Source: Syntrophomonas sp. (GTDB taxonomy: Bacteria > Bacillota > Syntrophomonadia > Syntrophomonadales > Syntrophomonadaceae). From it: a stretch of 64,000 nt of DNA. The notes under the pieces are model-generated. The model did no database searches, was not told where the DNA came from, and saw only the letters and a list, made by a program, of their open reading frames with translations. Positions 36,074 to 39,335 of the stretch are shown one piece after another. The position numbers and the translations under genes are program-made. Location: contig JAENZE010000006.1 of the NCBI GenBank assembly GCA_016841425.1, forward strand, positions 132,362-196,361. The letters run 5' to 3'. Position 1 is the first letter of the stretch; the number at the start of each line of letters is the position of its first letter.

Positions 36074-36595
36074 ATGAAATTCTCCAACGAATACTTCTGG
36101 GGTGTTTTACTGGTGGCACTAGGGTTAATAATCATCCTAAAAAATTATTTCCATATAAACATACCCGTGGTTAGAACTTTTTTTGCATGTATTTTCATCT
36201 ATATCGGGATTATGATGTTATTTGGTGGTTTTGCCAGCAAATCTAACGATATGATGCTATTTGACGAAGGAAATATTGAAATAACAGAGTCCTCTCCTGA
36301 ATATAGCATTTTGTTTTCGATGGGAACAGTCGATTTAACGAATCTCAAAACAGATACTAATGCAAAGGAAATTAAAATTAACGTTATTTTTGGAAGCGGA
36401 GAAGTTAAGTTAAGTCCAAAATCACCGGTTATTTTAAAAGTTAATTCCGCCTTTGCCAGCAGTTCTTTTCCAGATGGCAGCTCTTTGGTCTTTGGAGATT
36501 ACACTTACAGAGCCGGTAACTCTTCTGGAAATAATCCTGTGACAGTTGAAGTATCAGCAGTTTTCAGCAGGCTAAAGGTTAGCGAGATTCCATAA
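36074..36595 (+). CDS. LiaF-like membrane protein
   Basis: 173 residues: two N-terminal hydrophobic segments (GVLLVALGLIIIL and FFACIFIYIGIMMLFGG) followed by a soluble beta domain (SILFSMGTVDLTNL, IKINVIFGSGEVKL, VFGDYTYRAG) as in the C-terminal domain of LiaF/YvqF cell-wall-stress proteins. No LiaRS two-component pair is adjacent, so its role here is uncertain. ATG start behind AAGGAGTGAAG. Confidence 0.75.
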   Translation: MKFSNEYFWGVLLVALGLIIILKNYFHINIPVVRTFFACIFIYIGIMMLFGGFASKSNDMMLFDEGNIEITESSPEYSILFSMGTVDLTNLKTDTNAKEIKINVIFGSGEVKLSPKSPVILKVNSAFASSSFPDGSSLVFGDYTYRAGNSSGNNPVTVEVSAVFSRLKVSEIP

Positions 36596-36703
36596 TTCAA
36601 GCTTTACTCTGCTATAGATATACAGTCTTTTTTCCTATCCTCTTGTCATTACTAATTTAAGAATTGCTAATTCCTTACCAGATTGATCCTTCGCCAAGCA
36701 TAT

Positions 36704-37180
36704 CTATTGCTTGATATCAGTGTCTAGATTTAATTCCAAGTACAGAGCCCCTGGAAGAGGATTATATCTGTAGGGTGCTATATACTTAAAACCAAGCGCC
36801 TCATACAAATGAACAGCTTCTTTCATAGATATCAGAGTATCCAATCGCATACACTTATACCCCATCCTTCTGCCTTCATTAATAATTTCTAAAGTCAGTT
36901 TCTTGCCTATGCCTTTATCCCTGAAAGCGGGCCTTACATAGAGCCTTTTCATCTCACATATATCAGAGTCGATTTGCTTTAAGCCTGCACACCCTGCAGC
37001 CTGGCCTTTCCACTCGTATAACAATAAGACTCCGCCCGGTCCGGAATACTCACCTGGCAGACCTGCCAGTTCTTCATTGAAACCCTGAAATCACAGGCTG
37101 AAAGGAAGGGATTCCTCATATTCCATAAATAATCCCCTGATGGATTCTATGTACTGCTCCCTCTCAACTTTGACAATCAT
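36704..37180 (-). CDS. GNAT acetyltransferase with one in-frame TGA
   Basis: The frame from the ATG at 37180 (GGGGAAGTG upstream) to 36704 encodes a complete GNAT-family N-acetyltransferase of 158 residues if the TGA at 37091-37093 (codon 30) is read through. Before it: MEYEESLPFSL; after it: FQGFNEELAGLPGEYSGPGG, then CEMKRLYVRPAFRDKGIGKK (acetyl-CoA loop) and HLYEALGFK. Relatives commonly have Cys or Ser where the TGA stands. Either a nonsense-mutated gene or a selenoprotein; a hairpin with loop GGTC lies 21 nt after the TGA. Without read-through, only a 106-residue C-terminal part starting at 37024 could be made. Confidence 0.7.
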
Positions 37181-37265
37181 AATTTTCACTTCCCCAATTT
37201 TTTTCTTTAACTGCTGTTGGCAGCATTTTTCTCCTGTCTGTAAGCCACATATGTTCCCTGTAAAT

Positions 37266-37309
37266 GAATCGCCTTTATCCCTCTGCGCTAACCTTAAGCT
37301 TCCATCCCC
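37266..37309. repeat. Single MITE-type end (copy 3)
   Basis: In reverse orientation this matches the left end of the 14422 element (GCTTAAGGTTAGCGCA core, then GGCGATTC). It overlaps the last eleven or so codons of the YkvA-like gene. No matching opposite end is seen nearby. Confidence 0.6.
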
Positions 37310-37688
37310 AAGAAACTATTTTATTAAGTATTATGAAGATTATTAAAAACCAGACCACGATTACCATTAGCCCTGCAGTCCAGCACACCGGCTTCTCATG
37401 CCCCATACTATTCTCGGCTTCCAGTCTGCATTCTTCTATTATATGAGCCGGTATAATTCTCAATGCCAGCCAGATGCCCAGCGGTATCAGAACCAGGTCA
37501 TCAAAGTAACCCAATACCGGAATAAAATCAGGTATTAAATCTATTGGACTCAAAGCATATGCCACAACTATAATGATAAGTACTTTCGGCAGCAGGGGTG
37601 TGTCATGCCTTTTCGATGCCAGCCCCAAAACCCGGATTTCTTTTTTCAGGCTTTTTGCTTTTGCTTTAACGGCTTCAAAACTTCCCAC
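37275..37688 (-). CDS. YkvA/DUF1232 membrane protein
   Basis: 137 residues from the GTG at 37688 (TGGAG 7 nt upstream). The DUF1232 signature AYALSPIDLIPDFIPVLGYFDD lies in the first half with membrane segments either side; a second hydrophobic segment (LMVIVVWFLIIFII) is near the C-terminus. The final residues (WGWKLKVSAEG) are encoded by a dispersed repeat, so the original C-terminus has probably been replaced. Function unknown; the family is small membrane proteins. Confidence 0.82.
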   Translation of the reverse strand: MGSFEAVKAKAKSLKKEIRVLGLASKRHDTPLLPKVLIIIVVAYALSPIDLIPDFIPVLGYFDDLVLIPLGIWLALRIIPAHIIEECRLEAENSMGHEKPVCWTAGLMVIVVWFLIIFIILNKIVSWGWKLKVSAEG

Positions 37689-37761
37689 GTCATTTCTCCA
37701 TATAACAATATTATATAATCTTGAATGCATGTTTTAATAATATCACAGGGAAACGTAACAG

Positions 37762-37799
37762 TGGGGACAGTTCCCCCTTTAAGGTTGGAACTATCCCCA
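37762..37799. repeat. Inverted repeat, GGGGACAGTTCC type
   Basis: TGGGGACAGTTCC at 37762-37774 and GGAACTATCCCCA at 37787-37799 pair with one mismatch. Same core as the 18154 palindrome; REP-like. Confidence 0.75.
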
Positions 37800-37813
37800 T
37801 TTTCATTAAATAA

Positions 37814-37843
37814 GGGACAAGGTACGACCTGTAACCTTGTCCC
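37814..37843. repeat. Inverted repeat, GGGACAAGGT type
   Basis: GGGACAAGGT and ACCTTGTCCC, perfect 10-bp arms with a 10-nt loop, 14 nt after the previous palindrome. Confidence 0.75.
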
Positions 37844-38228
37844 ATAAAAAAGATGTAAAATTGCCTTTAGCTCAACCGGATATACAAGAATGTTACCTAT
37901 ACATCAGATCTTCTCATCGACCAGTGCAGAAGTTTACCCCCTCTGCATTAACCTCAAGTCGAATCTTATACACCTGTGGCATATGAGATTCTTAGCTCGG
38001 CAATTCTACATCTTAGTCTTATTATCACCATAAAAATGAAAATTATTAATTCCTTTTTATGTTTATTGCAGATCGATCCAAAATGGAATTCATAATTCAA
38101 TACAGTTATTGCTGGTGGGCATTGGTACAACATGTTATTAGAAAGTGATCCAGCTTTCCCTTATTAGAAAGAGATCTCTTTTGTTGGCTGAAATTGGGCA
38201 GGGGTGTTTTAGGCATTGTCTTTTATGT

Positions 38229-39335
38229 TCATTGGCTGGTTACCAGCCTGCTTGCTCTTCGTTCTGCCAATAAAAGGTCTACCATTCTACCGTAACTGTT
38301 TATCCCTTCTTGCTGGTTATTAAATTTTAGATAAACGTTATTGACCTGAGCAGATACCCTCAAAACAGGCCCCTGAAATTGCTGCCAGAATTCTCGTATT
38401 GCTGCCAAATCCCTTGTAACCCCCTCCGAATATTCCTGCTTCAATTTCTGGTATTTATCATAGTCATAACCTGACAGGGCATTCATGGAATTAATAAGTG
38501 CCAGGAGAGTGCCGGAATACTTAAAGTTAGGATCGGGGTGCTGAAGGCACGAAAGGTAGGCAATATAATTTGCTTCATCTTCTCGCGCAAATCCCCGTTG
38601 ATGAGCCATTTCATGACATACGGCAGCGGGAAAAAGAGGAATGGGGACTTCCATATTAACGTTGGCTTCCCCGGTAAAAGGAAAGTATATTCCCGATATT
38701 CCTAAGATAGACATTACTCTTGATAACATAACAGGTTTGGGTCTGCCGTATCTGCCTCCCAGTTCAGAATATACGGACCCTGCCATGGCATATCCCTTCC
38801 AGGCCTGGTCAAGCACTTCTTTTTTGTATGTTATGCCTAATAATTGGGCATCGTCCTGCGCAGCCTGCATTTCATTGGCCTGCCCGATTAACTCTATGCA
38901 TAGCAGCTCAAGTTCCTCCCCGCATATCTCTGTTGTATCCAGACCAGCCAGATCAGCAAATGGCAGGCGGTAATAATTGATACCCCACATAAGCAAAAAG
39001 GTGAAATAGCCTACGCTTACTACTACCAGCAGCATCACTGCTGTTCTTGCAAGAGAAGTGCCGGGGGAGGATTTTCTAAGCAGATTTACTAGATACTTGA
39101 CTGCACTGTAAACGAATGCCAGCAGTATAATCTGTACCAGTAATTCTGCTATGGAAATTGGCACCAACCCGATGATTCTGCTTAAAGCCGAAGCAAATAG
39201 TCTGTAGAACCCATTGGAATACAATTTCTCTACCGTCTCCGGCATGTGATAAAAAAGCCCGGTTAACAATACACCCCCGGGCAGCAGTAGAATCAGAAAT
39301 ATCTGCTTTTTAGATATAATTGCCACTACTCTCAA
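38229..39335 (-). CDS. DUF3810 membrane protein with HExxH motif
   Basis: 368 residues. Three hydrophobic segments in the first 130 residues (FLILLLPGGVLL, AELLVQIILLAFV, VMLLVVVSVGYFTFLLM) and a soluble domain with CHEMAHQRGFAREDEAN, a zinc-metallopeptidase-like HExxH plus downstream Glu. This is the DUF3810 pattern. Probably a membrane-bound metalloprotease; substrate unknown. The start is uncertain (TTG at 39335 or GTG three codons later). Confidence 0.8.
   Translation of the reverse strand: MRVVAIISKKQIFLILLLPGGVLLTGLFYHMPETVEKLYSNGFYRLFASALSRIIGLVPISIAELLVQIILLAFVYSAVKYLVNLLRKSSPGTSLARTAVMLLVVVSVGYFTFLLMWGINYYRLPFADLAGLDTTEICGEELELLCIELIGQANEMQAAQDDAQLLGITYKKEVLDQAWKGYAMAGSVYSELGGRYGRPKPVMLSRVMSILGISGIYFPFTGEANVNMEVPIPLFPAAVCHEMAHQRGFAREDEANYIAYLSCLQHPDPNFKYSGTLLALINSMNALSGYDYDKYQKLKQEYSEGVTRDLAAIREFWQQFQGPVLRVSAQVNNVYLKFNNQQEGINSYGRMVDLLLAERRASRLVTSQ

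Follow-up and report, generated by a model that had tools for sequence, protein, structure and literature searches.

The prokaryotic selenoproteins catalogued so far are mostly redox enzymes, metal handlers or proteins of the thioredoxin fold. No GNAT or acetyltransferase is found in a 2026 catalogue of 119 prokaryotic selenoprotein families and subfamilies, which takes in the families of Haft and Tolstoy 2025, nor in the 2025 deep-Sep list, and NCBIfam holds no matching selenoprotein model. The catalogued arsenite methyltransferase, methylated-DNA methyltransferase and MoeB resemble the locus described here as group-transfer enzymes that carry selenocysteine (Sec) without having a thioredoxin fold, but none of them is a GNAT or acetyltransferase. 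A literature search for a GNAT selenoprotein gave nothing relevant, although priority is not certain. In Syntrophomonas wolfei, ten selenoproteins were reported by a 2006 survey, a GNAT not being among them (PMC1794560).

Regarding the signals that direct Sec insertion, the bacterial SECIS model has a loop 16-37 nt past the UGA, a stem of 4-16 bp, G in the first two loop positions and a minimum free energy (MFE) of -7.5 kcal/mol or lower (PMC13188914). The closest described elements are those of formate dehydrogenase genes. In five genomes of Syntrophomonas, all 11 Sec fdhA sites have an apical loop with GGUCU, located 18 nt past the UGA. The E. coli fdhF-type SECIS, ggttgcaggtctgcacc, contains the core GCAGGTCTGC (PMC3834832), and this ten-base core is identical in the hairpin described below, in agreement with the resemblance to the E. 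coli loop first noticed by the original prediction.

We describe here a GNAT gene of Syntrophomonas sp. which, judging from its sequence and that of its relatives, is very probably a selenoprotein gene, with the UGA at codon 30 decoded as Sec under the direction of a hairpin. It would be a candidate new selenoprotein family with known, ordinary decoding, and the family appears to be new to the published list.

The GNAT gene and its in-frame TGA

The window, that is, the whole stretch of 64,000 nt that was analysed, contains the following features, in window positions:

36704..37180, minus strand: GNAT-family acetyltransferase gene, candidate selenoprotein with one in-frame TGA (translation with TGA read as U, Pfam, orthologues in congeners G015 and G016)
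37091..37093, minus strand: in-frame TGA, the proposed Sec codon, codon 30 (TGA in three species; Cys in 26 of 59 non-Sec relatives)
37054..37069, minus strand: SECIS-like hairpin CUGGCA-GGUC-UGCCAG with a 6 bp stem and a GGUC loop (identical in three species; loop of the fdh genes)
37187..37197 (approximate limits), minus strand: Shine-Dalgarno-like GGGGAAG region upstream of the ATG (read from the sequence)

The coordinates first given for the frame and the TGA were correct on re-reading of the sequence, while the strand was missing. The gene starts with the ATG at 37180-37178, behind GGGGAAG, and ends with the TAG at 36706-36704; the GGGAAGTGAAAATTATG of the Shine-Dalgarno-like region is found in G016 too. 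The frame of 158 codons was said to be intact apart from the TGA, and this is borne out, codon 30 being the sole internal stop. Ordinary annotation would truncate such a gene or label it as a pseudogene.

A profile search with curated cut-offs assigned the protein to PF00583 (58.3 bits against a cut-off of 20.7, E 1.2e-15) and PF13508 (51 bits against 27). The acetyl-CoA loop R/Q-x-x-G-x-G/A can be read in the three Sec proteins as RDKGIG or RKKGIG. The AlphaFold model has a GNAT fold with a pLDDT of 85.4, and its best PDB match is 3d8p (E 1.6e-10). Both sides of the TGA had been ascribed to the GNAT family; whole-length relatives do align across it, but the PF00583 match lies only after the TGA.

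Conservation of the TGA and of the reading frame

The gene was searched for in 54 genomes of the family, being found in two congener species besides our own (G015 and G016, one at 85% and the other at 83% identity, with one TGA each) and absent from two further congeners. The contigs of both orthologues are listed in a public collection as Syntrophomonas sp. MAGs and come from separate assemblies. In all three species the TGA is codon 30, with no indels up to about codon 155; the congeners carry TGA and not the Ser codon TCA that had been considered for related strains. Comparing our own gene with each congener (NG86), dS is about 0.55-0.65 and whole-gene omega about 0.13, with 0.06-0.08 for codons 31-52 and 0.11 for codons 31-155. 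Segments on both sides of the TGA are under purifying selection (omega 0.06-0.40). The frame has been kept by selection through the UGA in the three species.

The peptide encoded by the codons just after the TGA, FQGFNEELAGLPGEYS, is kept throughout the family. None of the three species has an in-frame ATG, GTG or TTG within codons 31-50, the earliest downstream starts being GTG 51 (one species) and TTG 53 (all three). Since FQGFNEELAGLPG (codons 31-50, ahead of these starts) is conserved family-wide and has no start within, it must be translated in frame with the preceding codons. Neither a stop nor a pseudogene nor a restart further downstream would preserve it.

Sec machinery and selenoprotein genes of the genus

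Whether the genome has sel genes at all had been left to be checked, and selA, selB, selC and selD are all present. The tRNA-Sec gene selC has the anticodon TCA, and selB scores above the curated cut-off. A SelA-like ORF of 466 aa adjoins selB, and selD has its own in-frame TGA (LTQMVRAAGUAAK), these two having been named from the sequence without a profile search. The genes selB, selA and selC are clustered together, and selC is found in 47 of the 54 genomes of the family. The selD gene lies at 2469-3428 of L052, in contig C17 of the same genome, on the minus strand, and is truncated by a standard ORF caller, which places its start behind the TGA.

FlpD/MvhD genes with an in-frame TGA (MDCAAUIGTPK) occur in congeners G014, G013 and G016 (L066, L067 and L068, respectively), while no match above threshold was found in the genome of the window. 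Their hairpin, GCUG-UGGCG-CAGC, lacks the GGUCU loop and lies about 26 nt from the TGA, a spacing close to the 27 nt of the GNAT gene. The GGUCU loop is also absent from the SECIS of selD, the shared loop being that of the fdh genes and not of all selenoproteins of the genus.

The hairpin as a probable SECIS element

The hairpin CTGGCA/GGTC/TGCCAG (37069-37054) begins 21 nt past the TGA and has its loop 27 nt past it, exactly as originally placed. It is identical in all three Sec species, where its conservation had been in question. With 27 nt, 6 bp, GGUC and -10.2 kcal/mol over 48 nt including a weak second helix, it fits the bacterial SECIS model. Folding energy was nevertheless dropped as evidence, with z about -0.2 to -0.4, which is insignificant, and the MFE is not exceptional. 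The arrangement itself is rare: among the 2229 TGA triplets of the window (both strands), a perfect stem of at least 6 bp with a GGTC loop 16-37 nt past the TGA is found once, at the GNAT site.

Like the GNAT gene, the FdhA selenoproteins of the genus have an in-frame UGA and, behind it, a hairpin with GGUCU at its apex, and they draw on the same supply of SelB and tRNA-Sec. They differ in the distance of the loop (18 nt against 27 nt, i.e. 9 nt longer in the GNAT gene), and their Sec is a metal ligand in a molybdo/tungsto-enzyme of unrelated fold. The bulged U that is a feature of the E. coli SECIS is missing from the GNAT hairpin, which has a plain 6 bp stem.

The same nucleotides encode the conserved peptide ELAGLPG, and the objection that the hairpin is a coincidence of this coding can be answered in part. 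Relatives with the same or a closely similar peptide do not have the GGUC hairpin, which is present in 3 of the 28 family members compared, the three Sec genes, and in none of the 25 non-Sec ones; random synonymous recoding of the peptide yields such a hairpin in 0.2% of trials. No covariation was found in the hairpin, as its sequence is invariant among the three species. Its codons 37-42 are synonymously conserved, which fits a SECIS, yet this is not distinctive, codons 70-75, for instance, being equally unchanged.

We propose that, in this 158-residue GNAT-fold acetyltransferase, SelB and tRNA-Sec would insert selenocysteine at UGA codon 30, guided by the SECIS hairpin 21 nt downstream of the UGA. 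This is supported computationally by the reading frame, which selection has kept through the UGA in three species, by the Sec machinery and by a hairpin whose loop recurs in SECIS elements of established selenoprotein genes in this genome. The candidacy of the gene as a selenoprotein, as raised at the outset, gains from the conserved TGA, frame and hairpin together with the sel genes.

Non-Sec relatives and probable origin of the Sec form

In 59 non-Sec relatives, column 30 is occupied by Cys (26), Asp (9), Gly (7), Ser (4), Ala (4), Glu (3) and others, with Trp never found in the sample. The expectation that relatives usually have Cys or Ser is partly right: Cys is the commonest residue, but Ser is rarer than both Asp and Gly. 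The column is not an invariant Cys, which makes the case less typical than a catalytic Cys/Sec pair. Two other cysteines, Cys 64 and Cys 75, are near-universal (59 and 50 of 62, respectively).

Some Cys-containing homologues (e.g. L032, SLCFQGFNEELASLPGDY, and L030) have about 45-57% identity to the GNAT protein over most of its length, with Cys at the Sec column, and differ from the Sec gene in having TGC or TGT for TGA and no GGUC hairpin. Apart from its Cys, the L032-type context is nearly letter-for-letter that of the Sec genes. The tree groups the three Sec genes in one clade (support 100/99), which is placed weakly near a Cys form. The simplest history is a single origin within the genus by Cys-to-Sec exchange, and the inserted residue would be Sec, derived from a Cys-containing ancestor.

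Sec at column 30 occurs in one genus only, which, like the longer spacing of the hairpin loop, counts against the selenoprotein reading; no Sec form at this column was found among the matches in 398 and 396 genomes of two phyla. The TGA of the homologue in G032 (L024) was rejected as a Sec codon, being a normal stop at codon 153 and not at column 30, and none of the TGAs in G684, G553, G562, G490, G593 and G810 of the second phylum is at column 30. In another GNAT homologue (L062, in G416), a TAG interrupts the frame at the acetyl-CoA loop (PSYRR*KIGK), possibly as a result of a nonsense mutation or of TAG recoding.

Alternative explanations for the UGA

A fresh nonsense mutation, a pseudogene or a sequencing error would leave the gene dead or cut at codon 29, and TGA does serve as a normal stop here, ending 7 of the 41 open frames of at least 200 codons in the window. 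However, the same TGA is present in three species from separate assemblies, at dS about 0.55-0.65 and omega about 0.13, with no indel and no second stop. The presence of the TGA in three species together with purifying selection rules out a fresh nonsense mutation or a sequencing error, so that the nonsense mutant considered by the original prediction is refuted, with TGA, frame and hairpin all kept at this divergence; the reading as a whole retains next to no probability. The UGA might otherwise end a 29-residue leader, a shortened GNAT being made by re-initiation at TTG 53 or ATG 77, both of which are in frame in all three species. This is extremely unlikely, as codons 31-52 lie ahead of these starts and yet show an omega of 0.06-0.08 and family-wide conservation, and the shortened protein would be without helix 1 and the loop that follows it.

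What the selection pattern directly shows is readthrough and not the residue inserted, and column 30 tolerates many residues, which would suit an ordinary near-cognate suppression of the UGA (by Trp, for example), with the hairpin as a chance or stalling element. Against it stand the full sel machinery of the genome, Cys as the commonest residue at column 30 in a sample where Trp never occurs, and a hairpin loop that recurs in the fdh SECIS elements of this genome. We regard suppression of this kind as very unlikely, and favor the decoding of the UGA as Sec.

Possible role of residue 30

The AlphaFold model places residue 30 in the loop that joins helix 8-24 to helix 34-39. In GNATs this loop, between helices 1 and 2, commonly shapes or lines the acceptor-substrate site, and these enzymes as a rule transfer the acetyl group directly from acetyl-CoA to an amine. 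The usually direct transfer and the variation of column 30 among relatives make it unlikely that basic catalysis depends on Sec. A role of the selenol in acceptor binding, metal or thiol binding, or redox control is more likely than one in acetyl transfer itself, because most relatives carry other residues at this column, although the role is the least certain part of our interpretation. Any role in binding the acceptor or a metal, or in a redox switch with Cys64 or Cys75, is a guess. That the gene represents an unlisted GNAT-fold selenoprotein family whose selenol has a direct part in acyl transfer, or in switching the acetyltransferase by redox state or metal, is a tentative and rather doubtful idea; if true, it would bring Sec into a class of proteins that is not known to use it.

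A Sec acetyltransferase, if real, would add a family to the known selenoproteins and raise the matter of what selenium is for in an enzyme class without an obvious redox step. With relatives that carry Cys, Asp or Gly at column 30, substitution offers a direct test of what Sec does. The neighboring genes (36074-39335) give no clue to the GNAT substrate. On the same strand, DUF3810 and DUF1232 genes lie upstream, a LiaF-like gene is convergent with the GNAT gene, and DUF3810 is found upstream of the GNAT gene in both congeners as well.
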